From positions 186,001-250,000 of the forward strand of contig JAOTON010001134.1 in assembly GCA_034440635.1 (NCBI GenBank): DNA of 64,000 nucleotides. The letters run 5' to 3'. Of this stretch, positions 22,279-45,570 are shown piece by piece. The position numbers were made by a program, and so were the translations under genes. The stretch comes from Lepas anatifera. Its lineage: Eukaryota; Arthropoda; Thecostraca; Lepadidae. How positions within the stretch are numbered: position 1 is the stretch's first letter; each line of letters begins with the position of its first letter. Under the pieces are notes generated by a model that worked only from the letters and a program-made list of their open reading frames with translations, was not told where the DNA came from and made no database searches.

Positions 22279-22342
22279 TTTATCTGGTAAAACAAGGAGA
22301 TAAAACCTTAATCCGTACGAGATAAAACGTGTTCGAGATTAA

Positions 22343-24507: not shown

Positions 24508-24726
24508 TCAGAGGATGTGCCTTGATATACGGCGATAAATACCACTTACGCACACACATGAACGTATACTGCGGGCACACAGGTAGACGACCGAGGTGCA
24601 CTCAGACAGGTTCGTGTTCAATGCAGAAAACTGCTGGCTGTGGTACTCTGCCAACTCTAGGATTCCATTGCTCGTCCTCTGAAGCTTGTCTTCCAGCAGC
24701 AGGCGTAAATGGCGATAGTCACTCAC
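24508..24726 (-). pseudogene. Conserved open stretch shared by E1 and E2
   Basis: The minus strand encodes LLLEDKLQRTSNGILELAEY and a Cys-containing tail. The E2 copy (plus strand, ~42550-42780) keeps the same frame with mostly single-residue changes and one premature stop. The residue composition looks like real protein, but I recognise no family. The antisense frame is also open in both copies. It could be a relic of a captured gene or of the element's own ORF. Confidence 0.3.
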
Positions 24727-24905
24727 TGTCGAGGGGCAGCACCTGATTATTTCTGTTTTGCATTCAGCTTTCTGGGGTAGCCCCTTCTTAAATTAGAAGA
24801 TATTTTCACAGCAGGAACAGATGGGACCAATAAAGGGTGCAAATAAAATATCACAAGCTCACAATGAAAGCAAACAAGATATCATTGCATCTTGTTTTAA
24901 ACATA

Positions 24906-24937
24906 TAAAAAATATTATATATATATATATATATATT
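24906..24937. repeat. (AT)n microsatellite
   Basis: A simple AT dinucleotide run of about 14 units. The E2 counterpart near 42375-42390 is much shorter. Confidence 0.85.
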
Positions 24938-26545
24938 CAAGAAGAAAGACGTCCCCAAAGACGATCTATACTCTAGATCATGGGTTTTTGGAGGGGTTGG
25001 GTGGAACCATGCAAAATCATGATTTTTTATAAATTATAATACATTATTTCCAAACTGGCCCACAATAGAAAAAAAATATTTCAAATTTCAGGTCTATGGA
25101 AGAATCGGTCTGATTGGGTTCATCCCATTCAAAGTAACAAACAAAATGATCATACACAAGCTGGTCCATTGATTGGGATGATAGTTTGATGATACACAGC
25201 AGCTACAAAAGACAGGGTTTCTAGTAAAAAAATTTTCTCTCTGAAGTGACCAGCCTAATCTTTCACATATTCCTCTAGGAAAACACAAAAAGTTGCATCA
25301 CCCAAGATTGCCCTCCTGTCATTCCTATATGTCTATCCATATTCTTTGTTCACAATTATATTTTTGTATTGGCTGGGTACATTCCTAGTGTTTCAAATCA
25401 TAATACATCTTATCCTAATTTTTCTTCAGTTTATTTTAAATAGCAATTATAAAAAACATGCAGATGGGCATTTGCAGAGGGCAGATGGATGAATTCATGC
25501 TACAGCCACTTTCATGTCTGGAAACAAACAGTAGCACTTGAAATATGAGTAACTTCATCCGAGAAGTGGATAAGAGTACACAAACTATTATGTACTGCAT
25601 GGTACCAAAATAAATGGTAAAATCTGTTTCAATATGTGAAATTATCAAAAACATTTTCATACTTTAAAGAAGGTAAACTAAGCAGAAAATGCACTAGCAT
25701 GCACACATTGTGCAGAACTAGTATTTGTAACAGGTAGAAATTTGTAATTCAAATTGCAGGCTTGATATAGAATTTTACTAGAGTGCACAGATATTGTAAA
25801 TAGAAAGTTCGACCAAAAAGAGAGCGAATATGGGACATTCAAAAATAAAATGCCTAAACAATCATTGGAAAATTGTCATCGCCAATCATTTTCACCCATT
25901 TTGGTACACAAGTTGACCTGTTCAACAATAAAGTGAGGATTTTTGGCATTGACACTACTCATAAGCCTTGTTCCATCTGTCAGAACAGTCCTGTCTGCAG
26001 GCCCTCGAGCCTCTCCTCTAGAAAAGAAATATCAGTGCCGCGACTGCCTCTAGTATGTGCTACTGCTTATCAAACAAAAATCAACCAGAATACTTATCTA
26101 CCAATCACAAAATAGTGTGCTGCCACTGTTCTGCTTTTACTGTTTCATCCAGCAGCACCACAGCAGGTTGTCAGCCTGTAAATCTACAATTGGTTCTATG
26201 ATTTGTTCTCAGGGAGAGGCTATAGTCATGCGATATCGACTCAATGCTGCTCGCTGATTGGTGTCGACAGACTGAATGAGACCGCAGCTATAATAGCGGG
26301 CCAAAATGAATAGTTATCAATTAAGCATACAATTTGCTTTCTGCCAACTTTGTGAACCTAATTAATGCAGAACAGAAACATGAAATGCATTGCCCATATT
26401 TGATGGGATTAGTGCCTGACTAACTCACTACACTCACTACACAAAACCTCAATAAGCATTGGTGCCCAGCAACGATGGATGGCAAAAATTAAAATTGTTT
26501 CATTAACTTTTCACTCATACATTTTTTCCTCTGAGAAAATCTCAA
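24938..26545. other. E1 interior, no gene recognised
   Basis: It matches ~40.4-42.37 kb of E2 inverted. No catalytic motifs are seen. The E2 counterpart holds a hAT MITE at 40670-41028 that is missing here; the empty site is at about 26238-26245 (GACTCAAT on this strand). Confidence 0.45.
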
Positions 26546-26762
26546 TTGACCACATCAAATGCTCTAAATATTTTACGTACAGATAACCGACGATATTGTT
26601 TTGTTGATCACGAGACCGGACCGGCGACAATCTCCTCGCCCTTAAAACCACCAAAACCTTTTGTCATGCCTCAAAAGAGGCTCTTCTGGATCGCGCTACC
26701 CGTATCTTTTTCTTGTATCATTGTCGCTGCAATGCAATCATGCAATAACGAACAATTATTAA
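26546..26762 (+). pseudogene. Short frame conserved in both E copies
   Basis: The frame has a hydrophobic segment (LFWIALPVSFSCIIVAAMQS) after a Pro/Lys-rich stretch. The E2 copy (minus, ~40145-40330) stays open through the same ~55 residues, though most base differences change amino acids, which argues against selection. The downstream end is cut by the gypsy insertion at 26763. Function unknown. Confidence 0.25.
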
Positions 26763-26824
26763 TAGCTGAGCAGCATTTGTATAAAAACAGCATTAATCGA
26801 GAACCTGTTTATTCAATGATGCCA
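26763..26824 (-). repeat. 3' LTR, distal piece (U5 side)
   Basis: It matches the end of the 5' LTR (38742-38805). It carries AATAAA on the minus strand near 26810, a likely polyadenylation signal; the 5' LTR has AATACA with a two-base deletion. Separated from the rest of the LTR by the P/THAP element. Confidence 0.88.
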
Positions 26825-27658
26825 AAGCAATAGAGACACTAGGTAAAACTTTGGCCGGATTTAAACAATGGACCAATAGGTGCACAGTTTGACAGATGTT
26901 GGGGGCGGGGCCTCTGGACCCGCTCGGGACCAGGCAAGTAGAAGACTGGACTAGCTTAAACTTATTAAAACATTGAATATGAAAAATCGTCTCGTTTTGG
27001 ATTTTTTAAACTCAATTGATAAACAAATATGTTGTCCAAAAAATCTAAGATAAAGCAGTTTTCTTGCTGACTTGGTAACTGCGGTAAGGGGGTAAACGGT
27101 GCAAAGAAAGTGTCTTGTTGCTTATTGAACCCAACATTTTACCACAGAAAAATACATAATACTCGTTATTTGGTGTTTGTTAAGCTATTTATGTATTTTA
27201 TTTAATTTTAATATTTGTTTACACATTTTTGTAGAATTTTATGTGAGTTTATTATTAAAAAATAACAGGTCAAATGAAGCGACATCAAGTCTTTAAATTT
27301 GCATCTTTCAAGATCAAGCAAGCGCGCGCAAGTCAATCGCGCCATTTATTTGCCGCCACATGTGCCCACCAATGTTAATTTTTGCTGTTTATTGCCGCAG
27401 TTCATAATCTAATGTGCCAAGGCGATGTATATTGCAGTGTGTGTGGTGTCTTTTCTATAGCAAGTTTGGGGAGTGATTGCCAATATTTGCATAGTTACTT
27501 GATTGTCCAAGTGTGTGCTCATGGCAATTAATCGGACAGGGAAGGGTGTGATTATCGTCCCTAGAAAGAAGCGATGGGGCTGCCGAAGAAAAATATTCTG
27601 GAATGAAGGGGAGGCCTAGGGAACAGTACTTGCTTCTGCACTACATAGAATACAACTG

Positions 27659-27730
27659 GAATATGCAGAGTTCAAATGTCACACTAAACATCCAGCAACC
27701 CTGCATCTGTTTCCTTCCAGCCAGGCAAGG
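27659..27730 (+). pseudogene. THAP-like exon fragment of the P element
   Basis: The frame reads AEFKCHTKHPATLHLFPSS and ends at a consensus donor (AAG|GTAAGT at 27730). LH-x-FP with a Cys about ten residues before it is the N-terminal signature of THAP domains. The first Cys of the pair is not in frame, so it is probably decayed. Supported by the transposase relic 1.4 kb downstream on the same strand. Confidence 0.4.
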
Positions 27731-27795
27731 TAAGTGGTCAAATTTCCCTTTCCATGCTCACTGACATGCTTTCTTGAGTAGGTAGGTATAAAATC

Positions 27796-28155
27796 CCAGT
27801 CTGCAAAGTATGGCAGCAGGGCAGACGAGTCGCACCAGCCATCTAAAATTCTCGCACCACCAGCTTCCAAAAATTCACACCAATCTGCCATATACCAGGG
27901 AGAAAAACGCACCCATTCCTACCCACACGATGCAATACTACCTCTCTTAGTAGTTAGTTATAGATGAACTTTTATGAGGCCCCCTCCTGTGTCTTAAAAA
28001 CCATTCAGCCATTATTTGTTTGGTTTAAGTGTCGCCTTCTTCGCACCAGTCTCACAAATTAGTACCAGGTTGAAAAAATTGCACCACTCGCTCCTGTCTC
28101 AAAGGGCACTCACATCAACAAGATCTCGTTAAAAATGTCATACTTTGCACACTGG
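27796..28155. mobile_element. hAT MITE, TTCGCACCA family, copy 2 (360 bp)
   Basis: Perfect TSD ATAAAATC (27788-27795 and 28156-28163); termini CCAGTCTGCAAAGTATGGCA / CTTTGCACACTGG. Inserted in an intron-like part of the P/THAP element. Confidence 0.92.
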
Positions 28156-29152
28156 ATAAAATCCATGTCCAGGGGCTCCACACTGAAATTGGATTTGTGA
28201 AGTTTATCTCAGATTGGGTCAAGTGGTAAATTAGTGTTAGTGGCTAGTTAGCAGTGTGCAGTAGTTTGGTTTGTCTGTCAATAATCTGGGGGTGGGTACT
28301 GGCCGTGCTCTGTTGTATGCCATGCCTATGTTTGTGAAGCTGTCATAATACAGTGTGTTCATAATTATTTGGATGTAATGTTTTCCTTGGTTCCATGGTG
28401 ATGCTCATTTATTTAGTTCCATTAGCTTAACAAAGTCAGATTTCTTTGTAGCCTATTTGCTATGCTTTGGATTTTTGAAAGCAAAATATAATGAAAATGC
28501 ATTGATATAATGATAGAGTAAAATTATGAAAATATGTATCACATAAATGTTGTCGTTACATGTGTCAGTGTTGGGGAAATGGTGGCCAAAATTCCCAGTA
28601 ATAAGTATGCTCTCAATTCTGGGCACTGTGACCTGTAATTGAAAATTTTCCCTCCAAAACTGACAATGTATGTGGCAGCACCTCTGTGCTGTGATGCTTT
28701 CATATTGCTGTATTTTCTAGTGCTCATGAATAAGAAATAGTATATGCTTCAAAATCTGGTCAAAGTGCAATCATTTCATTTTTCTTTAATCATTAAATAA
28801 GTTTTGTTAATATTTTCGCTGGACTGGAGGTGACTGGTGTGGAAAAATCGGAATTCAGAAAGGCCCGTTGTTTCCTAGTGAATAAAAAGAGATAATGAAC
28901 CTTGCAGTGGGTAGGTCAAAATAGATTTTGTCAGTTTTAAGTAATGACCAAAGTGTGAAAACTGGATGTATTTTGTCTCAGGGTTTTAAGTTGAGAAACT
29001 GTAATTCACTGACTTGTGAATATTTTACAGAAGTGTCTGCTAATTGCTTGATATAGCGATATATGCGATAAAACTGTTCGCGTATGACATTTTCTCATCA
29101 GTTGATAGTTGTGATGGTGAAGTTAATAACAAATCTCTCCCGTCAGGTGACT

Positions 29153-29985
29153 GGCCTGGAGCCACAGCGAGTACGCCCCGCAGCCCAAATGCTCAACGAG
29201 CGTGTCGGAAAGCTTCTGCTCCACCTATTTGGTCAGCGTTTCGCCAAGTAGGCTTAGTTCATCATCACCTGCGATAAGGTGTTCGACATCTGTAGCTCTC
29301 GGTGCATCCTTGACGGCAGGGCTCATCGGTCGGCGTTCGCCTTCGAGTACACCATTGTTGCTCAGCCACCTCTGATTTAGTTAACGCGACTAAATCGGGA
29401 CTCTTGGCGCGATGAAAGCCAGAGCAGGCTGCCCTTCCAGAACGGGTTCATCATATCCTTAACTGCTCTGCGAGGTCCCCACAGCATTATTAAGAACATC
29501 TACGGCGTCAAGTACTTTCTGACGTCACGGGTGAACCAGGACGTGGTGGAGAACTTCTCACAGGTCAGGGTCTTGGGAGCAGTCAACACCCACCCAACGG
29601 CGGTCGAAGCCAAGACTCGTATGATACTCTTGTTGATGGGGCCTCACCGTCCGTGGCCGTTGGTTCTCATGTCAGACCATGGCCCGCTGGAGTCCCAGTC
29701 AGTCCTGCTTGATGAAAAAGAACCAACTCACCTGGGTGCGGCTACCCTGCAGCTGGACCCTCTGACAGTCAGTACTGAAGAGCGTGACGTCGCTGCTGTG
29801 TTATGAGGTGGAGAGGTTGCAGCCTTACCCCGCTCCACATGTACAAAGAACAGGACTGACGGGATGAAGAAGACCAGGACGCCGCCGCGGAACCAGCTGC
29901 TCCGACAGAAAGGGGCATAGACCAAACAAATTTAGGCAGGTGCTGTCTTACATGGCGGGCTTTATTGGTATGTAAAGTGTAGATC
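29153..29985 (+). pseudogene. P-element/THAP9-type transposase relic
   Basis: Ordered, frame-shifted matches to the C-terminal half of P/THAP9 transposases. First comes VRPAAQMLNERVGKLL and ITCDKVFDICSSR (about 29160-29300). Then one open stretch at 29430-29640 reads NGFIISLTALR, YGVKYFLTSRVNQDVVENF and HPTAVEAKTRMILLLMG, which matches the conserved YILTSRLNQDxLENFFSQIR region that closes the catalytic core. Finally VLSYMAGFIG near 29950 resembles the LxYIAGYIA motif. In the full protein an RNase H-like DDE core with a GTP-binding insertion cuts the element ends. In-frame stops between blocks show it is inactive. Confidence 0.8.
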
Positions 29986-31979
29986 TGTACAGCTCTCTCG
30001 AACATATCCCATCGACCGTGCTTGTAGTAGATAATAGTGGGGATCTGGAGTGGTTGCCACGTCTTAGTCGGAGTGTTCTCACAGTACCAAATGAAAAGTG
30101 GCTTAGACAATTAAGGTAGCTAAATGTTTTGTTTTGTGTTATCCGTGAACCTAGCAGCATGGGTAGAAAATCACTAGTTATCCTCTGTTTTGCTTTTGGT
30201 ATGCTAGTTAAATTCCCGGACCTTAATCAAAAGATAGCGCGAAAGTACGCGGTGACGAGGACTCACATGCGCGTTAGGTGTGCAAACTATGTAAGAATAC
30301 GTATGGAAATGACAGCACTACATAATTTGTGTTTACGGCGTTGTGATTTCGTTCAGTCTGTGTAAACCCTCCATTCTTTGTTCACACCCATCATGAATAG
30401 ATATATGGGCATGGACAGCGAGACTATTTCAAAATGTATTCTGAGATGGTCCTGGTTTAAATTGTTTTTCCTGAGAAACTAGCACACTATATGATATCGA
30501 AGCCTCGTCGTTACCCCCCATGAACATAAACACACTGCACTGGTGCATAGATCTTGTTTCATGATATTTACAAAAGCGTTAAAAAGAAAGTCTCATTCTG
30601 GAAAATTCCTTGGCAGCATTTTTGAACGGAAGTGCCTTCCAGCTGTGTTGTGCTGTGGCCGGAGATAATTTTAGTGTAATAAAATTCCCTGAAAATAATA
30701 CCTTTAGAAAAGTTACTTCTCAGTATATGGCTGATAGTTAATACTAAATTTCGAGACAATAACTTTGGATTGAAACATGTCTGTAAGAAAGACTTTCTTA
30801 CAGACCACACTTTCCTAAATACCCGTTATTTCCTATCTAACTTTTTGGGATTGTAGAGAAAAAGAAAATCGGAAAAAATAAAAATAGAAGGCCAGATTCT
30901 CGCTCCCAAGAAAAAATTAGCTGCCACCTCGGATCTCTTTGATCAAGCATGATTCCCCCACCGACTGCCCTCGTATTCCCATGAAATGTCTCGGGGTCCA
31001 ATGCCGAGTTCTAATTTGTTTGCTCGCCCAGCGCATTCTTGCAATTCCCCGAGATGAGGGGCATACATTATCTTCAGGAGCAAGTGTGGCTTGGGCTCAT
31101 TATGACAAATTGCTTCCCAAGAATTTCTCAGGGAATTCAGGGGGCAAGGCGTTCCAACGATAGAACGCTTAAATCCATGAAGTCGCCACGGCAACAGAAA
31201 TGTCTCCTCACCCTCCCCCTGGCAAGCGAGAATTGGTGTCTTGTGGTAAGAAACCCATCCCCCACCCCTACCCCAAATATTATTGGAACGATTTTGGTGA
31301 CCATCCATGCCTGACACCTGGCCCATTGTCAGAACCAGGGTATGTCCGGGCCGAATGCTACCAGCAGCGAATGCAAGATGTCTATGAGGCTGAAACTCCG
31401 CAATATATCTGGATGCCGATAGAAAGGGGTTATTCGGAGGTGTGCAGAGGGTTGAGTACCCCTGGCCCCCTCCCCGAAACAAAAGTATACAAAGCCGTCA
31501 CTGAACCTCCTTCTCGATCAAGGCCAGGTGAACCCTGAAACGTCTATTGCTAACCCCATTCCAAGGGTGCGAGCATGGGTATCTCGGTGGCTGCGCTGCC
31601 CGGATTCGATAAACTACATTCCCTTAAAACTACATTCGCATTTTGTTCCTTCCCAATTCCTATACACTACATCTCTGTAGCAAAACCCTGGCTACTCACG
31701 GCACCCATCATAGATTCTGGTCTAAATGCCACCTTCTTCCCCTACAAAGAGAAAACCTGGATCCGACATTACAAGTTCCTGTTAATAACACCATGGTCTC
31801 CACACTTGAAATACTAAAACCGAACCTAATTCACCAAACCGAGCTCATTACGGCCTTCGGGGTACTGCCAGATAGATTTTCATCTCTAGTTGGGTTTTGA
31901 AGTAAGCCAACAGCAATTTGCATCAATCAGTATCAGCTGACTGCGCCTGCCCAGCTTCGCAGCCGACGGTCCCGGCCTG

Positions 31980-32126
31980 AATGATGCCAGCGACAGAACT
32001 GATGCGTTTCGGTGATTACAAATGGCGCCTAAATATCAGGATACACAAATGACGCACGCCAGACAATGGTTGCGCTGGGTTCTGTTCAGTTGGTGGCGCA
32101 CATGTGCCATGAGTCAAGCCCAGCTA
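31980..32126 (-). repeat. 3' LTR, proximal piece
   Basis: It matches 38793-38938 of the 5' LTR almost base for base, including the TATTTA box, the TCAGTT initiator and the TGTCGCTGGCATCA primer sequence. Bounded on the right by the polypurine tract. Confidence 0.93.
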
Positions 32127-32140
32127 TGCCCCCCTCCCCA
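32127..32140 (-). promoter_or_regulatory. Polypurine tract of the gypsy element
   Basis: On the minus strand GGGGAGGGGGGCA directly precedes the LTR start TAGCTGGG, the position where plus-strand DNA synthesis is primed. Confidence 0.8.
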
Positions 32141-32225
32141 GAGGACTTTAGTCCGGAGACCTGTCGCGGGAGCTAATGCAATAACGAGTGGCACAGGCAA
32201 ATCACAAGGGACGCACACAGGAGGG

Positions 32226-35200
32226 TCACATTTCAAAGTCGCGGTAGCGTGTGGTGCAACCACGGCGTATGCGAGAGGAACGGCGGGGTAGCGGTGCATC
32301 AACGGGGGCTCCCTGCGGAACTGGGGTCCCGAGGCGGTCCCGGCTGCCGAGGTATCCCAGCTTGGGGGACACTGGCTCCAGAGGCACCGACTGCGAGAGC
32401 GGGGCTGGAGGGGGCACAGGCTCCAGAGTCACCGACGGCGGGGGCGCCGATGGCAGGACCACTGACCCGTGAGAAGCTGGCGGCGAGGGCGCAGGCGGTG
32501 GGTCTGGTATCGTTGAGGCGGCCGGCTGCGGAGCCGCCGGCTGATAGCCCACCGACGGAGGAGGCGTGAGAGGCCAGGGTATCAGCGGCGTGGATGCCGG
32601 TAGCGTCGAGCCAGATGGCTGCACGGTAGGAGAGGCCCCTGCAGGAAACGGCGCTGCGGGGGACACCGGAGTGAAGGCCCGGAGGAACTTCCGGTTGCGA
32701 AGGGTCAGCCGGCGCGAGCCGTCAAGCCGGACCTGGTACTGACGGAAGGGCAGGACAGCGACGACCGTGCCGCGGCGGTCCCACTGACGCGGGTGGTTCC
32801 CCGTCTGGTTTTGTACCAGCACAGACTGGCCGACCCGGAGAGGTGGGAGATCAGCAGTGCGGAGGGACAGACGCTCATGGTCCTTCGTGGAGCGCCTTTG
32901 GAGAGCCTGCTCCCGCCATGAGGCGACGTCATGCCACGTCGGTCGAAGGTCGGCAAAGGTGCGCAGCGGAGGCGACAGTGTGCTACCAGGGAGGAAGTCT
33001 CGGAGCTGGCGACCCAGAAGAAGCTCGGCTGGGGACATGCCAGTGGCCCGATCAGGCGTATTGCGATGCTGGAGCAGGGCACGAGTGAGCTTGACAGAGT
33101 CGAGGCGGCCGTCGGGTCGGATGTTGTCTCTGATCAGACGTTTTGCCGACTTTACCGCGACCTCTGCACGGCAGTTTGCGTGCGGAAAGGCGACAGATGT
33201 CAAGCGATGAGAGATACCATGCTGTCGCATGAAGTCTTGCATCGGCCCAGCCATGAACTGAGGCCCACCGTCGCTTGTTAGCGTCTCGGGAACACCAAAA
33301 TCCCGGCAGAGGTATGTGAGCACTTGCTCAAGAATGAGGTTTCGTCCCTCCCAGACCTGGAACCAGTGACTAAATCGGTCGACCACAACACCGTAGTTGT
33401 GACCCATGTAGCTAAAGAAGTCAGCGGCAACGTGCTGAAAAGGATATTCAGGGATGATTGGCGGTACGGGAGGCAGATTCGACTGCGAGGGGGCGTGGCG
33501 GTTGCAGGTTGGGCAGCGGCGTCGAGTTAGCTCAATGTCCTGAGCCATGGCGGGCCAGAAGAAGCCGCGCTCCGCCCGGAGGCGCATGCCAGTGACGCCT
33601 TGATGAGCCGAGTGGAGGGCCGCCAGGACGCGGCTACGGAGCGCGGAGGGGATAACAGCGCGTCCGCGGTACAGGAGGACAGGACCAGCCGTAGACAGGT
33701 CGCGACGGAGGCACCAGAGCTCCTGCGTGGCGGGGTCAAGCACGTCGGGAGAGGCGGTTGGCGACTGCAGCAGGCGTACGACGGAGCGGATCGGGGCGTC
33801 CTCGCGGGATGCTTCGGCGACCGTCGACCAGGTGATGGGCTGCATGGACGGCGAGACCGCCAGGAGGAAGTCATCGTCGACGCCATCCTCAGGGCCCAGG
33901 GGGGAAGCCAGGAGTGCCGTGAGGTGATGCTCATCATCTGGCGGGGGAGTCTCGTCAGAGCTCCGCAAGCCGTACCGGGACAAGGCGTCGGGGCCGCCGT
34001 GCGAGCGCCCGGGGATGTGGACCATGGTGAAGCGCCAGCCGAACGTCTTCTCCTTGAGGCGACGGAGGCGGGGGGTATCGATGCCATCCAGCGAGCGAGT
34101 CTTGAACAGTCCCAGAAGGGGCTTGTGGTCTGTGCCAACAATCAGGTGGCCACAGCCTAGGGTGAAGTACCGCGTTTTCTCGAGCGCGTTGACCACTCCT
34201 AGGGCTTCACCTTCTGACGATGAGTAGCGGCTCTCAGCAGAGGATGTGAACCGGGATCCGACGCCGCAGACTTTCCACCCATCGGCGCAGCAGTGCGGGC
34301 GAGAGTCTGTACAAGTACAGTGCTTCTGGAGCATGACGTATCCCAGCCCAGATTTGGACCAGTCAGTCAGGAGGCAGGTGTGGCGAGCGGGGTCAAAGGC
34401 GGTGATGCCCTTCTCCACCTCGGAGGCGATGGCGAGCTTGGTCTCGCAGAACAGACCTTCCAGCACATCGTCCCAGTACCAAGTTGAGTCCTGCTTCAGT
34501 AGCTCGCGAAATGGCAGCAGCTGTGGTTGAGTGGCATAGAACATCGATACCTGGTTCACTAAAGCCATGAACGAGCGCAGGTCAGTGACGTTCCGTGGGG
34601 TGGGGAAGGAGCGGATGGCGTCCGTGTGGGACGGCAGCGGGCTGACACCGTCAGGGGCTATCCGGAAACCGGCCCAGTCAACTGACTTCTCGCAGAAGAC
34701 AAACTTGTCCCTGTTCTGGAGGATGCCGTTTCTACCACAGAGGGCGAGGTAGTCTGCGACATGGTGGAACATGTCGGCCACCGTCGGCTTGTACAGGATG
34801 GAGTCGTCGATGACTCGAGCGCAGTCACGCACGTTGACCGTGATCTGATCGAAGCGGTGAGTGTACGCGTCACCGGAGGCCTTGTATCCCTGGGGCGCAG
34901 TCTTGTAGCGGTAACGACCCCACGGAGTCAGGAAGGTGGTGAGGTGCCGATCAGTGGGGCGAATACTGACGGAGTGGTAGCCGTTGAAGGCGTCCGTGGT
35001 AGACTTCCAGTGATTGGCTGGAATAGACATAGCCTGTTGGAATGGGGGCTTGGCGGGATGTGTTTGACGAAGACTGGCCTCGTTGAGCGCCTGCAAGTCA
35101 ATAGTGCGGCGTGGCTCGCCGTTGTGCTTACGGGTGACAACCATCCGCGAACACCACGTGACAGGCACATTCGGGTCCACCTTCTCCAGGACGCCCATGG

Positions 35201-35687
35201 CAACATCCCGGTCCAAGTCCCGCCGGATCTTGTCCTCCCAGTGGAGAGGTACGACCGAAGGAGTGTACACAGCTCGGGGGACAGCGCCAGGTTTGAGGGC
35301 GAGCTCCAAAGGCGGGCCATGCATCAACGGCAGCGGCTGGTGGCAGCACGTGTTGAAGGTGGACGAGGCGTAGTGATCCAGCAGCAGCTGCCTAAGGGCA
35401 GGAATGTCAGCCTCGCCAACCGGTCCGCGAAGGGAGGGCGGGTCAGGCGTATCGGTACGGAGCGGGCAGCCACAGGGGGCCAGCCTGGCAGGGGGATCAG
35501 GTTGACCGGAGAGAGCAGAGACGTCGGCGGCCGCAGCGGATTGGCCTGGTGGATGAGGAGGGTAGGGGAAAGACCCAGGAATCGACCCCAACGAGGTGAG
35601 GGCGTCCTTTGACAGATAAAGACCAGATATTTCCTGCACGACGTACATGAGCTCCACAGTCTGGTAGGAATGGCCGTCGGAAGTCAC
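32226..35687 (-). CDS. pol: Ty3/gypsy Pol polyprotein (RT, RNase H, integrase)
   Basis: A long open frame of 1153 codons. Residues 1-40 are the C-terminal end of the protease. RT spans ~110-340 with catalytic Asp in TDAFNGYHS (~232) and the VIDD pair (~292-295). RNase H spans ~430-570: TDWS (~441), E in SSSEGEA (~495), D in VGTDHKPL (~520), then the HGGPDALSR linker. Integrase has the zinc-binding H-H/CPTC (~692-728) and the D-D-E core at AADFF (~756), TSDGGPQF (~806) and RAEVAVKSAKR (~842; usual NGxAE is NCRAE here). A GPY/F-like module lies near 945-1000, followed by a Pro-rich tail to 1153. These enzymes copy the RNA to DNA and insert it. The frame is open but separated from gag-pro by a frame change inside the protease. 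Confidence 0.93.
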   Translation of the reverse strand: MTSDGHSYQTVELMYVVQEISGLYLSKDALTSLGSIPGSFPYPPHPPGQSAAAADVSALSGQPDPPARLAPCGCPLRTDTPDPPSLRGPVGEADIPALRQLLLDHYASSTFNTCCHQPLPLMHGPPLELALKPGAVPRAVYTPSVVPLHWEDKIRRDLDRDVAMGVLEKVDPNVPVTWCSRMVVTRKHNGEPRRTIDLQALNEASLRQTHPAKPPFQQAMSIPANHWKSTTDAFNGYHSVSIRPTDRHLTTFLTPWGRYRYKTAPQGYKASGDAYTHRFDQITVNVRDCARVIDDSILYKPTVADMFHHVADYLALCGRNGILQNRDKFVFCEKSVDWAGFRIAPDGVSPLPSHTDAIRSFPTPRNVTDLRSFMALVNQVSMFYATQPQLLPFRELLKQDSTWYWDDVLEGLFCETKLAIASEVEKGITAFDPARHTCLLTDWSKSGLGYVMLQKHCTCTDSRPHCCADGWKVCGVGSRFTSSAESRYSSSEGEALGVVNALEKTRYFTLGCGHLIVGTDHKPLLGLFKTRSLDGIDTPRLRRLKEKTFGWRFTMVHIPGRSHGGPDALSRYGLRSSDETPPPDDEHHLTALLASPLGPEDGVDDDFLLAVSPSMQPITWSTVAEASREDAPIRSVVRLLQSPTASPDVLDPATQELWCLRRDLSTAGPVLLYRGRAVIPSALRSRVLAALHSAHQGVTGMRLRAERGFFWPAMAQDIELTRRRCPTCNRHAPSQSNLPPVPPIIPEYPFQHVAADFFSYMGHNYGVVVDRFSHWFQVWEGRNLILEQVLTYLCRDFGVPETLTSDGGPQFMAGPMQDFMRQHGISHRLTSVAFPHANCRAEVAVKSAKRLIRDNIRPDGRLDSVKLTRALLQHRNTPDRATGMSPAELLLGRQLRDFLPGSTLSPPLRTFADLRPTWHDVASWREQALQRRSTKDHERLSLRTADLPPLRVGQSVLVQNQTGNHPRQWDRRGTVVAVLPFRQYQVRLDGSRRLTLRNRKFLRAFTPVSPAAPFPAGASPTVQPSGSTLPASTPLIPWPLTPPPSVGYQPAAPQPAASTIPDPPPAPSPPASHGSVVLPSAPPPSVTLEPVPPPAPLSQSVPLEPVSPKLGYLGSRDRLGTPVPQGAPVDAPLPRRSSRIRRGCTTRYRDFEM

Positions 35688-36829
35688 ACTGAGAGATACT
35701 GGGAGTGCCCCCAGACTGTCAGTCGGGACTTGTTTGCTGCAAACAGGCTGATGCTAGACCGGAGAAGATCACACTTGGCGACACCCATCGCGGCGAGAAT
35801 GTCTGGACCGCAACAGGTCACCGTAGCCCCTGTGTCTGCGACGGCTGTACAGGTGGTGGCCCGGTTGGCAGATGAGCCCGAGCGTGCGCGGGACTGCCAA
35901 GACCGGCTGCCGCTGTCGACAGCGACAGTGACAGGAAGACAGTTACTGGCAGGACGCTGCAGAGCAGGAAGGTACTCTTGCTCAGCTTCGGCAACAAACT
36001 TGCTGGATAGTTCAAACACTCCATCAGGCGGTTCGGTCACTGAGGGGGTCTCAATCGCCCCTACCTGGGCAGGCGTGGAGGCTCCCGGCTGGCCCTTGCG
36101 ATGGCACACGTGGGGAAAATGACCGCGTCGGCCACAAGTGCAGACGTGACTGAACGCTTTACACTGAAGCCGGCGGTTGTCGTGGGCCTGCTCGCCACAG
36201 TGTGAACACAGCCCAGGCTTAGATTTCAACAGAGGCTTAGGGCTGCTTGCAGCGCCTTTCTGGCGTTTGTACGTGGACTGGAGCCGTCCTAATCCTTCTT
36301 CATGCATCACCTCCTGGCTGCGCTTAGCCATCTCCCGGTCCACAGCGTACTGTTCAGCTACAGCGAGGCTGAGGTCGGTTCGGGCGAGTAGGTCAGCTTG
36401 GGCCTCCAGGTCGCTAAGGCCAGCAAGGAGCTGGTAAAGCACCATGTCATCCTCGTAGCTTACCTGAGCCTGGCAGGAACAGATGGCTTTAAACTGGCAC
36501 CGCCTGGCAGCAGCGCGGAGGCTGGCGGAGAAGTGGGCAACTGGCTGACCCTGCCCCTGTTTCATGTTATGAAGCTGGAGGACATATGACAGTCTGTTTT
36601 CTGGTCGGACTAGGAGCACCTCTAGGTTGGTGAGCAGTTCAGCCTCCGTCTGTGCAGTGAGTGCTTCACCGTACCGCGCGAATAGTAGGTTGTAGGCAGA
36701 GGGAGGCAGCGACTGCAGAACAGTATCCGGCAGAGTATCCGGGGGCTGCTGTGCCCAGACTGCGCCTGTAGGAGGCCAGCTGCTGCCGGAAAATCCCCAT
36801 AGCGGTCTCTGTAACCGTGCCATCTTCAC
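35684..36829 (-). pseudogene. gag: Gag (main part) and N-terminal protease, frame-broken
   Basis: The frame covers the capsid-like helical region, then two nucleocapsid zinc knuckles (CSHCGEQAHDNRRLQC and CTCGRRGHFPHVC, residues ~210-245), and then the aspartic protease active site DTGATVTCC. It stops soon after, while the rest of the protease continues in the pol frame (GALPVSLSV then TSDGHSYQ). Because the switch falls inside the protease fold, at a G-rich run near 35718, it looks like an indel rather than programmed frameshifting. A second frame change near 36720-36790 separates this part from the N-terminus. So at least two lesions disable the first polyprotein. Confidence 0.85.
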
Positions 36830-36998
36830 TGGTCTCCAAATGGGGCAGTTTAGCCCGTGGCTGGCGATCAGGCACCGGAGCCAGGCTGTGCACTGCCTTT
36901 TCGTGCATTTGTAGCAGTTGAATGGCTACAGGCCCCTCAAGAGCAGGGGTTTGATAGCTGCAGTCGAGCCACGGGCACGGAAGCTCGGTAGATGCCAT
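36666..36998 (-). pseudogene. gag: Gag N-terminus with C2H2-like finger
   Basis: The start codon at 36998 is the first after the leader. The N-terminus holds CPWLDC ... HEKAVH (C-x4-C, ~19 residues, H-x4-H spacing), resembling a zinc finger at the front of Gag. The stretch to about residue 75 (TETAMGIFRQQLA) is Gag-like. Beyond it the frame drifts into nonsense, while the correct continuation is in the frame beginning at 36829. The leader upstream is interrupted by the foldback element at 37014. Confidence 0.7.
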
Positions 36999-37220
36999 TG
37001 GGGTTGAAATTCGGGTATTATCGCAGTAGGTGGATCACATCTCGCGGTTCAAAAGGATCACATCAGAAGGTCTACAGTTCATATGTTCTACCGCTCAAAA
37101 TGTCTAACTTAAAAAAGTCAAACATTCAAAAGGTCCAAAGAGGCGTGCTCAGATGCATGAGAGTGGGGTGCATGATAACGCAGAGGCGTGCTAAGGCACC
37201 TGATAATAGGAGGCTATGAG

Positions 37221-37473
37221 GGTTAGGTTAGGTTAGGTTAGGTTAGGTTAGGTTAGGTTAGGTTAGGTTAGGTTAGGTTAGGTTAGGTTAGGTTAGGTTA
37301 GGTTAGGTTAGGTTAGGTTAGGTTAGGTTAGGTTAGGTTAGGTTAGGTTAGGTTAGGTTAGGTTAGGTTAGGTTAGGTTAGGTTAGGTTAGGTTAGGTTA
37401 GGTTAGGTTAGGTTAGGTTAGGTTAGGTTAGGTTAGGTTAGGTTAGGTTAGGTTAGGTTAGGTTAGGTTAGGT
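37221..37473 (+). repeat. (TTAGG)n array, left arm (~50 units)
   Basis: Near-perfect TTAGG pentamers, the arthropod telomere unit. Interrupted at 37474 by a hAT MITE and resumed at 37822-37843. Confidence 0.97.
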
Positions 37474-37821
37474 CCAGTCTGCAAAGTATGGCAGCAGGCC
37501 AGACGAGTCGCACCAGCCATCTAAAATTCTCGCAGCACCATCCTCCAAAAATTCGCACCAATATGCCACATACCAGGGAAAAATGCACCCATTCCTACCC
37601 CTGCAATGCAATGGTACCTCAATCATTAGTCAGTTAATTAAGGGCTTTTTATAAAGCCCCTTCTGTGTCTTAATAGCCATTCAGCCATTATTTGTTTATT
37701 TTAAGTGTCACTAACCTCGCAAATTCGCACCAGGTTGATAAAATTCGCACCACTCGGTCCTGTCTCCAAGGGCACTCGCACCGACGAGATCTCGTCGAAA
37801 ATGCCATACTTTGTACACTGG
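37474..37821. mobile_element. hAT MITE, TTCGCACCA family, copy 3 (348 bp)
   Basis: TSD GGTTAGGT on both sides (37466-37473 and 37822-37829), cut from the telomere-type array itself. Because the target is repetitive the duplication is less diagnostic here, but the termini match the other three copies. Confidence 0.9.
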
Positions 37822-37840
37822 GGTTAGGTTAGGTTAGGTT

Positions 37841-37924
37841 AGGTCAGGTCAGGTCAGGTCAGGTCAGGTCAGGTCAGGTCAGGTCAGGTCAGGTCAGGTC
37901 AGGTCAGGTCAGGTCAGGTCAGGT
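37841..37924 (+). repeat. (TCAGG)n variant block, ~16 units
   Basis: The TTAGG array switches abruptly to homogeneous TCAGG, the telomere unit known from beetles. The right arm has only two or three CCTGA units at the mirror position (38197-38218), so the block expanded in one arm only. Confidence 0.95.
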
Positions 37925-38196
37925 GTGTATGCCCTAAGTCCCTATTTTCTAGTCTGGGGATATCAATCCTCTTTCCAGAATCTGAGTGCGCCTCTGGTCT
38001 GGGTACCACTTTTCAAAATGTCATAGAAATATCCCCAAATTCTGCAAGAAAATCCCTAGAGATGAAACGGACGGAAGGAGGGGAAGTTTGAGTAGTGTTA
38101 AGTGGTACCCAGACCAGAGGTGCACTCAGATTCAGGAAAGAGGGTTGATATCCCAGACTAGGAAATAGGGACCAAGGGCATACACAATTGAACTTA

Positions 38197-38450
38197 CCTG
38201 ACCTGACCTAAACCTGACCTAACCTAACCTAACCTAACCTAACCTAACCTAACCTAACCTAACCTAACCTAACCTAACCTAACCTAACCTGACCTAACCT
38301 AACCTAACCTAACCTAACCTAACCTAACCTAACCTAACCTAACCTAACCTAACCTAACCTAACCTAACCTAACCTAACCTAACCTAACCTAACCTAACCT
38401 AACCTAACCTAACCTAACCTAACCTAACCTAACCTAACCTAACCTAACCC
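38197..38450 (-). repeat. (CCTAA)n array, right arm (~50 units)
   Basis: Complement of TTAGG, with a few CCTGA variants at the inner edge and one near 38290. It faces the left array head to head. Confidence 0.97.
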
Positions 38451-38727
38451 TCATAGCCTCCTATTATCAGGTGCCTTAGCACGCCTCTGCGTTATCATGC
38501 ACCCCACCCTCATGCATCTGAGCACGCCTCTTTGGACCTTTTGAATGTTTGACTTTTTAAGTTAGACATTTTGAGCGGTAGAGCATATGAACTGTGGACC
38601 TTCTGATGTGATCCTTTTGAACCGCGAGATGTGATCCACCTACTGCGATAATACCGAAATTCGTACGATAGGCAGTACTCACGGCAGAAAAAAACTTGCA
38701 GCACTTAGAAAATTATACTCGGTATCT

Positions 38728-38741
38728 TGTCGCTGGCATCA
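38728..38741 (-). promoter_or_regulatory. Self-priming site just after the 5' LTR
   Basis: On the minus strand TGATGCCAGCGACA starts at the base after the LTR end. It is a perfect 14-nt complement of TGTCGCTGGCATCA inside the LTR (38794-38807), which lies ~5 nt after a TCAGTT initiator. No TGG-type tRNA primer-binding site is present. This is the Tf1/sushi-type arrangement, in which the RNA 5' end folds back to prime reverse transcription. Confidence 0.65.
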
Positions 38742-38938
38742 TAGCTGAGCAGCATTTGTATAAAAACAGCATTAATCGAGAACCTGTATTCAATGATGCC
38801 AGCGACAGAACTGATGCGTTTCGGTGATTACAAATGGCGCCTAAATATCAGGATACACAAATGACGCACGCCACACAATGGTTGCGCTGGGTTCTGTTCA
38901 GTTGGTGGCGCACATGTGCCATGAGTCAAGCCCAGCTA
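38742..38938 (-). repeat. 5' LTR (197 bp) with promoter
   Basis: The ends are TAGCTG / CAGCTA. A TATTTA box sits about 30-35 bp upstream of TCAGTT, a match to the arthropod initiator, so transcription probably starts near 38812. The short U3-R-U5 is typical of compact Ty3/gypsy LTRs. Confidence 0.85.
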
Positions 38939-38943
38939 ATTAA

Positions 38944-39617: not shown

Positions 39618-40669
39618 TTAAAGGGACATTATCGCAAAAATTTTTATTGGCTAGATCAAAAGGTTACAAAAAGTTGTTTCAGAAGTCATATTCTCATTTT
39701 TGCAAATTCAGGCTTAAAATGCCTGAAAATCGGCCTCAAAGTCAACATTTATAGACGACTTTACCGAGTCCTTATGGTAACGATAAAGTGACGTAGACCC
39801 GGCTATAGCTATCAATTTATATATGAAAAAATGTCAAACATTTCTTTTAAAGCAGTTCAGTAGCTGAAACCTATAACATCAAAAATTATTCTATAAAAAT
39901 GTATTTCCAAAACGCTTTTGGAAGAGAAATATAGGACTTTAAAGAAATGCCATCAACCAATCAGAAGCCCAGTCCTTATAGGATCTGGTCACGTGGGCTT
40001 ATCTTACATCAATGTGATGTCATCATGGCTACCAATGAACTATCGATATTCACCATTTCAAAAACCGCGGCAAACGCGAAGATATAAATACAAATTCTAT
40101 AACACTAATTAGCGCTGCGGTCAGGCCCGAATACCCTAAAGATTATAATTAATAATTGTTCGTTATTGCATGATTGCATTGCAGCTAAAATGATACAATA
40201 AAAAGATACGGGTAGCGCGAACCAGAAGAGCATCCTTTGAGGCATGAAGAAAGCTTTGGGTGGTTTTTCGGACGAGGAGATTGTCGCCTCTCCGGTCTCG
40301 TGGATCAACATATCGTCGGTAATCTGCACGTAGAATATTTTGAGCCTTTGATGTGGTCAATTGAGATTTTCTTAGAGGTAAAAAATCTATGCGTGAAAAG
40401 TTAATGAAACAATTTGAATTTTTGCCATCCATCTTTGCTGGCCACCAATGCTTATTGAGGTTTTGTGTAGTGAGTGTAGTGAGTTAGTCAAACACTAATC
40501 CTATCAAGTATGGGCAATGCATTTAATGTTTCTGTTCTGCATTAATTAGGTTCATGAAGTTGCCAAAAAGCAAACTGTATGCTTAATTGATAACTATTCT
40601 TTTTGGCCCACTGTTATAGCTGTAGTCTCGTTTCGTCTGTCAACACCAATCAGCGAGCAGCATTGAGTC

Positions 40670-41028
40670 CCAGTCTGCAAAGTATGGCAGCAGGCTAGAT
40701 GAGTCACACCAGCCACCTAAAATCATTGCACTGCCAGACACCAAAAATTCACACCAAACTGCTATATACCATAGTGAAAAATGCACCCTTTCCTACCCAC
40801 ACAATGCAATGCTACCTCTTGTATTAGTTAGTTAAATACTTGTTATAAGGTCCCCTCCTGTGTCTCTATAACCATTCAGCCATTATTTGTTTGGTTTTCA
40901 GTGTCACCTTCCTTGCACCAGTCTGGGAAATTCACACCAGGTTGATGAACTTCACACCACTCACTCTTGTCTCCTAGGACACTCGCCCTGATGAGATCTC
41001 GTTGAAAATGCCATACTTTGCACACTGG
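40670..41028. mobile_element. hAT MITE, TTCGCACCA family, copy 4 (359 bp)
   Basis: Perfect TSD ATTGAGTC (40662-40669 and 41029-41036). E1 has the uninterrupted site near 26238-26245. Interior words have drifted to TTCACACCA. Confidence 0.93.
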
Positions 41029-41036
41029 ATTGAGTC

Positions 41037-44000
41037 TATGTCACATGGCTATAGCCTCTCCCTGAGAACCAATCTTAGAACCAATCTTAGATTTACAGGC
41101 TGGCTACCTGCTGTGGTGCTGCTGGAAAAACAGTGACAGCACAACAGTGGAAGCATACTTTTTGTGATTGGTAGATAAGTATTCTGGTTCATTTTGTCTG
41201 ATTAGCCATAGCACATACTAGAGACAGTTGTGGTATTTCTTTTCTAGAGGAGAGGCTCAAGGGCTCGCGGACAAGGCTGTGCTGGCAGACGGAACAAGGC
41301 TTATGAGCAGTGTCAATGCCAAAAAGTCCTCATTTTATTGTTGCACAGGTTAACTTGTGTACCAAAATAGGTGAAAATTATTTGCTGATGGCAATTCTCC
41401 AATGATTATTTAAGCATATCATTTTTGAATTGCCCATATTCCCTCTCTTTTTGGTCTAACTTTATATTTACAATATTTGTGCACTCTAGTAAAAGTCTAT
41501 ATCAAGCTTGTAATTTGAATTACAAATTTCTACCTGTTACAAATACTGGCTCTGCACAATGTGTGCATGCTAGTGCATTTGCTGCTTAGCTTACCTTCTT
41601 TTAAGTATGAAAATGTTTTTGATTAATTTTACAGATTGAAACAGATTTTCCATTTATTTTGGTACCATACAGTACATAGTAGTCAGTGTACTCCTATCTA
41701 CTTATCAGATCCATTTACTCATATTTCAAGTGCTACTGTTTTTTCCAGACATGAAAGTGACTGTAGCATGAATTCATCCATCTGCCCTCGGAAAATGCCC
41801 ATCAGCATTTATGCCCATCTGCAGATGAATTCATCCATCTGCCCTCTGAAAATGCCCATCTGCATGCTTTTTATAATTGATATTAAAAATGAACTGAAGG
41901 AAAACTAGGATAAGATGTATTATGATTTGAAACACTAGGAGTGTACCCAATACAACAATATAATTGTGAACAAAGAGTATGGATAGTCATGTAGGAATGA
42001 CAGGGGGGCAGTCTTGGGTCATGCAATTTTTGTGTTTTCCTGGAAGAATATATGAAAGATTAGGCGGGTCACTTCAAAGAGAAAATTTGTTTACTAGAAA
42101 ACCTGTATTTTGTAGCTGCTGTGTATCATCAAGCTATCGTCCCAATGGACCAGCTTGTGTATGATCATTTTGTTTGTTAGTTTGAATGGGATGAACCCAA
42201 TCAGACTGATTCTCCCATAGACCTGAAATTTGGAATATTTGTTTCCTATTGTGGGCCAGTGTTGAAATAATGTATTGTAATTTATAAAAAACATGAATTT
42301 GCATGGTTCCACCTGACCCCTCCACAAACCCATGATCTAGACTATAGATCGTCTTTGGGGATGTCTTTGTTCTTGAATATATATTGCATATGTTTAAAAC
42401 AAGATTCAGTGATATCTTGTTTGCTTTCATTGTGGGCTTGTGATATTTTATTTGTACCCTTTATTTGGTCCCATTTGTTCCTGCTGTGAAAATATCTTCT
42501 AATTTAAGAAGAGCCTACCCCAGCAAGCTGAACGCAAAACAGAAATAATCAGGTGCTGCCCCTCGGCAGTGACTATCGCAAATTACGCCTGCTGCTGTAA
42601 GACAAGCTTCAGAGGACGAGCAATGGAATCCCAGAGTTGGCAGAGTACCACAGCCAGCAGTTTTCTGCATTGAACACGAACCTGCCTGAGTGCACCTCGG
42701 TCGTCTGCCTGTGTGCCCGCAGTATACGTTCATGTATGTGCGTAAGTGGTGTTTATCGCGGTATATTAAGGCAAATCCTCTGAGGACCTCAGTAAAACAT
42801 GCCATTAAAAGTATTTTTTAGCCTAAAGGTAAGAAAACTAGTAATGCAAAGGGTCTTTATAGTCAAAAATCAAGTGGTCAGATTTTGTTGGTGGTCGTGC
42901 GAAAGTCGGCGAAAATAATAAGTGACACCTCTGTGCTCAGACTATTGCGGTGAACATTTTATCAAACCGTGTAGCACTTATTGTGGACAGATGCAAAATC
43001 TGTTATGCTTTTGATGTACACTCAGTATTTGGTTCGCTCCCAGCCTTCTTAGAGTGCACTTCAAGGACTGGAAGCTAGGAGCTGCATACCCACTGGTGGG
43101 TTCAGGGAAAATTTACTTTCCTCCCAAACTCTGCGATTTTCACCGACCTTTAAAAAATGTGTATTTACGATTTTGGACCCTGTCCTCCCCTCCCCCCACA
43201 AAAAACATTGGCCTGGATCCGTCACTGACGTACTGAGTTATATCCTCTAGTCCACGTTGCACTCGGAAGACTGCTCGTTGGGGACTCGCAGACCTGATTG
43301 TTGCACGCGTTTCTCACCTGCCGAGGGTTATCACTCGCTTGTAATTTCCTGGTAGGTTATATTTTCTCATGTTTTTGTGAGATTGAATATAAGCCTCATT
43401 GATCAACTGATATCTGTTGGTTTTTAAAAGTAGATGAATTTTGCATTGCGTAGCCGAGGAGCATGATTATAAATTGGTAAGATGTTTCATGGCTTTGCCT
43501 CTCGAATTCTTGACGCAAAATGGAGCCTGTGATTACATATTCGGGCACAGCCCCTCATCAGAATCCTCATAATACAATAAGCGAAAACTTTTGGTCATAG
43601 TGTGACCAAGGCTTGAAATTTAGATCTGATTGGAAATCGAATGCTGGAATAATGCAGTTCAGTACTGGAATATTCAAATATTGGAACTCGATTCGAGGTT
43701 ATCCTAGCACTCTGACTAAAAATGTATGTGTTCACCTATTATATTATGAGAATTTTGGCGAAGGGATGTACCTGAATATTTATCAGTGTATTAGCCCCAT
43801 TTTGGAACTATGATTCGAGGAGGCTGGTCATGAAATATCTTATCAACGTAGATAATCTAATAAACAATCTAATAAAAATAACGGTTAATATACTATTTTA
43901 TATACTGATATGATGTTATATGAAGTGCTTCTGGAATTGTTTGTTCTATTATGAGAAAGGACCGTTTCCGAACTCCGAAGTATTAAAAATAAACGCTTAT

Positions 44001-44562
44001 CATTTTCATAAACAAATCTCACTCATGAGGCTAGCAGCTTGCTTGTCTTAAAGCTGCGATGCGTCTTCTTAGGTTTAGACTCTGTGACTACCAATGTTAA
44101 GATTAATTATAGAATCCTTTTTATTTAATACGAACTGTTCCAGGCTATAATTTTGAGGTATATTTTCATGATGTGCCCTGATCAGAAACTAACTCAACTT
44201 GAAGTAAAAAACAATGTATTCTTAAATCTTGTATATCTATATACGAAAAAAATTAGAAAGAGCTACCACCACGGACAGAGGAGTGAGGTGGCCAGTCCAT
44301 CTCCAACCTGCAACACACAACAAACGTTACCCCTGAAACAAAAAGTGATCAGGTTTGGGTTCGTGGTGCGTTCCACACTTTTGTTAGTTCATCCAAGGAT
44401 CGTGGTGGCTGCTCTCTGGTTCCCCAGTTCTGACGCATATCAAGAGTTATTCTTCCGTATCACATTCAGCTATTCTCCGGTTCTCTAGACTACGTGTTTT
44501 TATATTCTCCGGAGACCAAAGAATTACAATTATATCAAAGATTTAGATGTCGACGGACACAT
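41037..44562. other. E2 interior
   Basis: The counterpart of E1 ~22.75-26.24 kb. A plus-strand stretch at ~42550-42780 is the partner of the conserved frame at 24508-24726. Nothing else coding is recognised. Confidence 0.5.
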
Positions 44563-44946
44563 TTAACCTGATTGATTGATTGAGTGTTCCGGCCATATGG
44601 GGGGGCGCCCCTGCAGGCGCCCCAACCGCCGCAGGAACATCGCCAGCCGTCGCGGTTCCGCCAGCGCCTCCCGGATGGGCGGGTCGTCCCGTCCAAATAT
44701 GTCCCAGCGCAGGTCAGCGCACGCAGGGCACCGGGTCAGAAGGTGGTGGAGGATCTCGTCCTCTCCATCGTCGCATTCCTGTAACGTGGCCTCCGGGTCC
44801 AGGCCGATCCTCTTTCGGTAGCTGCACAGGAGAAGGGAGTGGCCAGTGCGCAGGCGCTCCACCTCCACACTCTCCTGCCGTGAAAGGCCCAGGCGGTCTT
44901 TCAGGGTGGTCCGCCCTGGGAGACCGCCACATTTAATCTCGAACAC
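44563..44946 (-). pseudogene. LINE C-terminal zinc-knuckle fragment in E2
   Basis: Counterpart of 22343-22732, minus strand, with the C-x2-C...H...CPAC pattern (RTGHSLLLCSYRKRIGLD) and the (AATC)n tail near 44573-44583. It was thus part of the shared E ancestor. Confidence 0.75.
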
Positions 44947-44996
44947 GTTTTATCTCGTACGGATTAACGTTTTATCTCGTTGTTTTACCAGATTAA

Positions 44997-45570
44997 CACG
45001 CGCATTGACGGGGCTCTGAGCCACCTTCGCTTTGACAGGGGGCGCGGGTACCCCCCTAAAATCTCCAGAACCACGGTAGGTAGTGAAAAATGGTAAACGG
45101 CTTTGGGTAGCCCATACGCTTCTCCATCGAAATATTTTAACCATTTTGTCAGGTCACTTCAATCGGATGAGTTCACTTTGTTCCGACTTATGTTGTCTTA
45201 AACTTTGAGGTCAGGTCACTTGACCTGTACTGGTGACCTGACCTGAGATGACCTAACCTTAAAATTTTGACAAAAGTTGTAAAAATGATGAGAGAAGGTA
45301 TGTCAAGTTTTTTAACCCGAGTTTATTTTTAACCCGAGTGTGTTAAGTACCTACCTAATAAGTGTGTGATGGCTTAAATTCCGTGGCGGCGCCCCTGCCT
45401 AGTTTTCTTTGCCTAGTGTTAGGAGTGTATGTTTTACCATGTACTGCGTTTTTACTGTTAATATACGCGTATGGATACAAGTGCGGCGGCGCGTAGCGCC
45501 GCCGTTTTTATGCTCTGTCCCAGAAACCAGACGGGGGGGGGCGGGTACCCGCCTCCCGTCAATGCGCGTG
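44997..45570. mobile_element. TTAA family A, copy in E2 (574 bp)
   Basis: TTAA at 44993-44996 and 45571-45574; the counterpart of 21873-22278. It holds a ~170-bp extra piece at ~45308-45480 absent from other family A copies. The right TTAA is shared with the adjacent family B element. Confidence 0.88.

Follow-up and report, generated by a model that had tools for sequence, protein, structure and literature searches.

Within a stretch of 64,000 nucleotides from Lepas anatifera (hereafter, the window), the unit at 37014-38655 is very probably a member of a multicopy foldback family of non-autonomous DNA transposons, for whose mobilisation in trans a Mutator-like (MULE) transposase is the likeliest agent. 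The inverted arms of this family carry arrays of the pentanucleotide TTAGG. The family is recognised by the structure of its copies, their recurrence in the genome, their target-site duplications (TSDs), a pair of reciprocal empty sites, the polarity of the arrays and the insertions nested within them.

The first-pass annotation had proposed a foldback unit with a perfect 8-bp TSD and about 50 telomere-type repeats in each arm. Its boundaries, which enclose 1,642 bp, proved to be exact; the TSD GAAATTCG is present on both sides and has no other occurrence in the window, and the arrays contain 50 TTAGG units in the left outer array and 46 TTAGG plus 4 TCAGG units in the right one (Table 1). As had also been described, the TTAGG arrays stand head to head within long complementary arms. 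Besides the inverted arm A on the outside, a second inverted repeat, B, lies on the inside. Read inward, each arm of the window copy consists of A, TTAGG units, mostly TCAGG units, and B. The 207-bp outer arms are 98% alike (203 matches, 3 substitutions and 1 gap), while the left and right copies of B share 80 matches, with 6 mismatches and 5 gaps. Three consecutive TTAGG units, with up to two mismatches allowed, gave 99 overlapping matches in the window against 0.15 expected by chance. The longest stop-free frame of the window copy is 82 codons, and an Rfam search returned no matches.

Table 1. Positions in the window of the foldback copy, of the retrotransposon that carries it, and of the MITE copies.
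Feature	Position	Strand	Remark
Left TSD GAAATTCG	37006..37013
Outer arm A, left, tip GGTATTATCGCAGTAGG...	37014..37220	+	copies found in genome
Left outer array, 50 TTAGG units	37221..37473	+
Nested hAT-like MITE, inside left array	37474..37821	+	3 more copies in window
MITE TSD GGTTAGGT, 8 bp	37466-37473 and 37822-37829
Left inner array, 4 TTAGG then 16 TCAGG	37822..37924	+
Inner inverted repeat B, left	37925..38011	+
Central spacer, 87 bp	38012..38098	+
Inner inverted repeat B, right	38099..38188	-
Right array, 46 TTAGG + 4 TCAGG	38189..38449	-	read on minus strand
Outer arm A, right, inverted	38450..38655	-	aligned to left arm
Right TSD GAAATTCG	38656..38663
LTR retrotransposon carrying the foldback in its leader	26758..38943	-	Gypsy-like
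Retrotransposon TSD ATTAA	26758-26762 and 38939-38943
Retrotransposon 5' LTR	38742-38938
Presumed gag start	near 36998
gag-like frame	35684-36925		no Pfam match
pol	32226-35753		RT, RNase H, integrase matches
5.1-kb insert splitting the retrotransposon 3' LTR	26825-31979		flanked by 10-bp repeat AATGATGCCA
hAT-like MITE copies in window (n=4)	15187-15531, 27796-28155, 37474-37821, 40670-41028

Assembly is difficult at palindromes and in pentamer arrays, and an artefact at the palindrome had been named as an objection to the structure. We give this explanation practically no weight: the two halves differ by the 3 substitutions and 1 gap in A, by the 6 mismatches in B, and in the length and composition of their arrays; the MITE is found in one arm only; and copies of this structure occur elsewhere, next to TSDs of other sequence.

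Other tandem repeats are also present in the window. Units of 19-20 bp (GATCAGCTCAGGGGCCCC type) form arrays of either orientation at 1-2841, 9726-13444 and 60244-64000, which are up to 91% alike over 3 kb, and a GC-rich array of about 18 copies of a 65-bp repeat, with several frames open, extends over 4803-5965.

The foldback lies about ten bases ahead of the presumed gag start of the retrotransposon. One substitution and one 2-bp indel are all that separates the two LTRs of this retrotransposon (197 and 199 bp), and the insertion that received the foldback is itself young; because the foldback came after it, the window copy probably jumped recently. A related copy of the retrotransposon's target, at about 40150, is uninterrupted and, together with the nesting, establishes the order of events: target repeat, retrotransposon, foldback, MITE. 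In protein searches with pol and with two RT fragments, the best 120 of 865, 488 and 309 hits, respectively, included named sequences from Palaemon, Euphydryas, Hydra, Amphimedon and a bacterial bin, all of them distant. The window also contains a repeat of about 5 kb in two copies of opposite orientation, at 21958-26763 and 40148-45308, which are 89-90% identical.

The MITE that splits the left array of the window copy is 348 bp long (CCAGTCTGC...CTGG). It is noncoding, is flanked by an 8-bp TSD, ends in a short TIR and occurs in several copies, as is the case for hAT-type MITEs, and from its TSD and ends we take it to be one of them. The copies beginning at 15187, 27796 and 40670 have perfect 8-bp TSDs of their own (CCTCACAG, ATAAAATC and ATTGAGTC, respectively). 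Patterns representing the arm and the MITE gave no matches in viral contigs.

To look for further copies, as the first-pass annotation had proposed, arm A was searched in the assembly to which the window belongs (1,044,440,039 bases in 2,126 contigs). The search returned 1,987 first-look candidates, the best 40 of which were scored, and 43 places were listed: 40 with 99-100% identity, including the window copy, and 3 with 75%. The scored places were fetched with their flanks and, after the removal of 13 narrower duplicates, 35 non-redundant loci remained, which contain 69 arm copies with an identity of at least 95%. Three or more TTAGG units in a row were found within the 300 inner bases of 68 of these 69 arm copies, and the other one (the right arm of locus L039) has six TTAGG units, never three of them consecutive. 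Since the scored places are the best 40 of 1,987, the sample leans towards young and intact copies, and older copies outside it may be without arrays. The family as a whole probably comprises several hundred to about a thousand copies. The pattern of the arm/array junction had no matches in the genome contig collection that was searched.

These results indicate that other copies do carry TTAGG arrays between TSDs, and the objection that the structure could be restricted to a single locus falls with the 35 loci. The annotation had also regarded arm copies without TTAGG or without TSDs as contrary evidence. No scored copy is without TTAGG; TSDs, however, are absent from one tandem cluster (L014) and invisible in the eight one-ended loci, 8 of the 35, in which the second arm was not found within the fetched stretch.

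Two-ended copies were found in 26 of the 35 loci and number 28, one of them being the sister element of L043. Their TSDs comprise 18 perfect duplications of 9 bp, 5 perfect duplications of 8 bp (the window copy among the latter), 2 of nine bp in which one base does not match, 1 displaced by an additional G, and 2 whose length is ambiguous because the copies are located in periodic arrays. With 23 of the 28 perfect at 8-9 bp, the family falls within the 8-10 bp TSDs of foldback elements. The arm pairings were chosen by hand, and five loci (L018, L029, L043, L046 and L047) allowed several pairings, of which those with matching TSDs were taken; the tally is favoured by this choice, and without these loci a perfect TSD is present in 18 of 21 copies (13 of nine bp and 5 of eight bp). 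The usual TSD of the family is 9 bp, and the window copy belongs to the 8-bp minority. The idea that its TSD is a 9-bp duplication that has lost one base was rejected: 8-bp TSDs recur in L013, L022, L023 and L048, and the 8 bp of the window copy are therefore taken at face value.

The cluster L014 (G000 C1444:2195000-2204500) consists of four units of about 2.1-2.3 kb in a row, which carry arms of the window family and of 75-78% relatives. None of its 9 possible pairings shows a TSD, and we regard it as a local tandem amplification.

Direct evidence of insertion comes from the reciprocal empty sites of L032 and L035, which lie at different sites in two paralogous repeats that are alike at 527 of 571 positions: each one is continuous, with a single copy of the duplicated bases, at the point where the other has its insertion. 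These empty sites and the perfect TSDs of 22 other copies bear out the earlier proposal that the unit moved as one foldback transposon.

The same observations decide whether the unit could be the relic of a fusion between telomeres or between sister chromatids. A TTAGG array opposite a CCTAA array has the orientation expected of a fusion relic, yet such a relic should separate differing chromosome-end flanks and have no TSD. In the window, the arms end sharply at the TSD within a single LTR retrotransposon, whose sequence (LTR and coding part) runs on beyond both ends; elsewhere, 22 of the 27 other two-ended copies have perfect TSDs of their own, and two show the reciprocal empty sites. The fusion reading, which the annotation had already set aside, is refuted, with a negligible residual probability.

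The full order A-array-B-spacer-B'-array-A', which is that of a foldback, is kept in 25 copies, which measure 912-1,642 bp from one recognised arm end to the other. The array region measures 75-515 bp on the left, leaving out the 705 bp of the window copy, which are enlarged by the MITE, and 95-404 bp on the right. Within one copy the two arms diverge by 2.0% on average and by 3.9% at most (23 copies), and left arms diverge between copies by 2.4%. One 912-nt copy is predicted to fold into a single DNA hairpin of -455 kcal/mol, whereas 20 shuffled sequences average -108 kcal/mol.

Composition and polarity were determined for 49 arrays, the left array of the window copy being left out. They contain 1,282 TTAGG and 382 TCAGG units, together with others such as TTGGG and CTAGG; in a sister copy, runs of TTTAGG, TAGGC and AAGTC also occur. 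Units of this kind (TCAGG, TTGGG, TAGGC and TTTAGG among them) indicate that the motif is not strictly held to TTAGG. In every one of the 49 arrays TCAGG is on average located further inward than TTAGG, and none of them contains CCTAA when read from A to B.

Two origins of the arrays have to be weighed. They could be an ordinary pentanucleotide microsatellite, without connection to telomeres, that grew by slippage in the arms of a foldback, and we put the chance of this slightly below even. The drift of the units agrees with it, as does the lack of correlation between left and right array lengths (r = -0.22; 25 copies, the window copy included). In 49 of 49 arrays the variant units occupy the inner side, the one that would be telomere-distal in a captured telomere; this points the same way, and so does the lack of a telomeric repeat at any of 77 readable contig ends (80 were fetched, 3 of which consisted of N, with only 150-400 bases each). 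Against it stands TTAGG as by far the dominant unit; TTAGG also forms the telomeres of most arthropods and of those decapods that have been studied (PMC7859515, PMC8977481). Mobile-element transport has been counted among the possible origins of interstitial telomere sequences (PMC6410037).

The arrays could also have been true telomere repeats originally, either by a single capture from a chromosome end or by telomerase addition at a break in an ancestral arm, and then have been copied to the other arm; we consider this rather unlikely. Order and polarity are identical in every measured copy, which makes a single origin of the arrays likely, and sister elements whose arms are about 77% alike carry arrays as well, so that this origin probably predates them. 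In a captured telomere, however, variant units are expected at the centromere-side end, which here corresponds to the outer arm, and the variants are found at the inner end instead; direct telomere capture is mildly disfavoured by this opposite placement.

The arrays have themselves received insertions. In L047 a family copy lies within the TTAGG array of another copy, with TTAGG on either side, and in L043 a copy adjoins the array of a sister element with 77% alike arms. An arm directly follows a CCTAA run in L018, and in L029 (G000 C2119:1613900-1618800) a family copy is located in a (GGCTA)n array beside a 76% relative of the arm, from which it follows that the array motif varies between relatives. 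Taken together with the MITE of the window copy, these cases suggest that TTAGG arrays are favoured, or at least tolerated, as landing sites. A third foldback was noticed deeper in the TTAGG array of the sister element of L043 (L043:4560-6650, G000 C456), with tips GGTAATCATCGGG / GGTAATCATCGGGTAGACG and arms made of 40/125-bp tandem repeats.

As to the superfamily, TSDs of 8-11 bp and long TIRs are Mutator (MULE) traits (PMC6446971), and the family has both. Foldbacks assigned so far are mostly Mutator, according to a statement in PMC4079207, and 9 bp is the commonest TSD of our family (18 of the 26 unambiguous two-ended copies). The mobilising transposase could nevertheless be of P type, hAT type or another type. 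TSDs of 8-9 bp are common to other superfamilies, occurring in P, hAT and Merlin elements too. One foldback, Galileo, is a P-superfamily element (PMC3688188, PMC3169594); we think it improbable that such an enzyme, and not a Mutator-type one, mobilises the family. The idea that the one-ended copies might be autonomous elements found no support, the listed frames of L003, L030, L031 and L037 looking RT-like or unrecognisable by eye. No transposase was recognised by eye in the frames of these four loci or in those of L043 and L044.

The annotation had assumed that no family with this structure had been described. This holds for the telomere-type unit as far as the search reached: TTAGG arms were not found in any foldback or Mutator family among the best matches in the openly licensed literature. 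It does not hold for the general plan, since foldbacks with tandem repeats in their arms and TSDs of 8-10 bp are already known (PMC4079207, PMC3169594), and what appears to be new here is the telomere-type unit in the foldback arms.

One close likeness is to Tetris, a foldback of Drosophila virilis, which has long inverted arms composed of a unique domain and tandem repeats, TSDs of 8-10 bp and, in the part of the source available, no conserved open frames; its authors place it in Mutator, and its arm repeats seeded satellite DNA (PMC4079207). Its arm repeat TIR-220, in contrast, is a long unit unrelated to telomeres, and only three structurally complete copies are present in the assembled genome (PMC4079207). 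Tm1, a Mutator/Foldback element of root-knot nematodes, also has composite arms in which the number of tandem units varies between the two ends, and TSDs of 8-10 bp, mostly 9 bp; it differs in its unit of 13-15 bp, present in 1-9 consecutive copies, and in having a known element that codes for a Phantom-like transposase (PMC3169594). Rehavkus is Mutator-related, with a 9-bp TSD and satellite repeats in its termini, and the window family likewise has tandem repeats in its termini; unlike it, Rehavkus is a 9.5-kb element of Tribolium, has a 164-bp unit in mostly 5 and 8 monomers, and possesses a PHD-finger transposase (PMC6446971, PMC10218199).

Comparisons can also be made with Galileo, with Drosophila FB and with a sea urchin foldback. 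The last of these is named TU, and to our knowledge the arm units of all three are not telomere-like. They are foldbacks with internally repeated arms (PMC4079207, PMC3169594), Galileo differing as a P-type element (PMC3169594).

In penaeid shrimp, transposable elements carry SSRs, and (AACCT)n, a telomere component there, forms long SSRs; the association, however, is of SSRs with TE classes, notably En-Spm, and the available portions of these reports describe no TTAGG-armed foldback between TSDs (PMC7878876, PMC6341167). MoTeR of Magnaporthe is likewise mobile and gives rise to interstitial telomere tracts, but MoTeRs are retrotransposons that insert at telomeres, and the tracts are internalised target and not the cargo of inverted arms (PMC7367193). 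A Mutator family of Medicago has TA microsatellites as its target (PMC4486113).

For the foldback family of the window, we propose that a transposase supplied elsewhere, probably of Mutator type, would recognise the conserved outer arm tips (GGTATTATCGCAGTAGG...) and excise the element, which would move by cut and paste. Insertion through a staggered cut would duplicate 9, sometimes 8, target bases. The TTAGG arrays, lying between arm A and arm B, would be passengers copied at every jump, by which the family would disperse head-to-head TTAGG blocks. Array length would then drift independently in the two arms, for which replication slippage or unequal exchange is the simplest mechanism; new units such as TCAGG, TTGGG and others may arise inside the arrays, and these would take further insertions, both from their own family and from others.

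A link of the family to telomeres may exist. In its strongest form, TTAGG would be the telomere motif of the host, and the family would disperse telomere repeats, prefer TTAGG arrays as landing sites and build interstitial clusters by inserting into its own arrays, from which breaks would gain a telomere seed, or a recombination partner for chromosome ends. We hold this full scenario to be quite unlikely, and any effects of the element on chromosome ends, including the seeding of new ends or fusion points suggested by the annotation, are speculation.

The family is a concrete example of TTAGG blocks that move with a transposon, documented by TSDs and empty sites. Should the telomeres of the host be TTAGG, interstitial FISH signals could not be read as relics of fusions unless this family were ruled out, and one could test at individual loci what a dispersed telomere block does to breakage, healing and fusion. 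If the telomeres of the host are not TTAGG, the family still shows how microsatellites arise in foldback arms and are spread by them.
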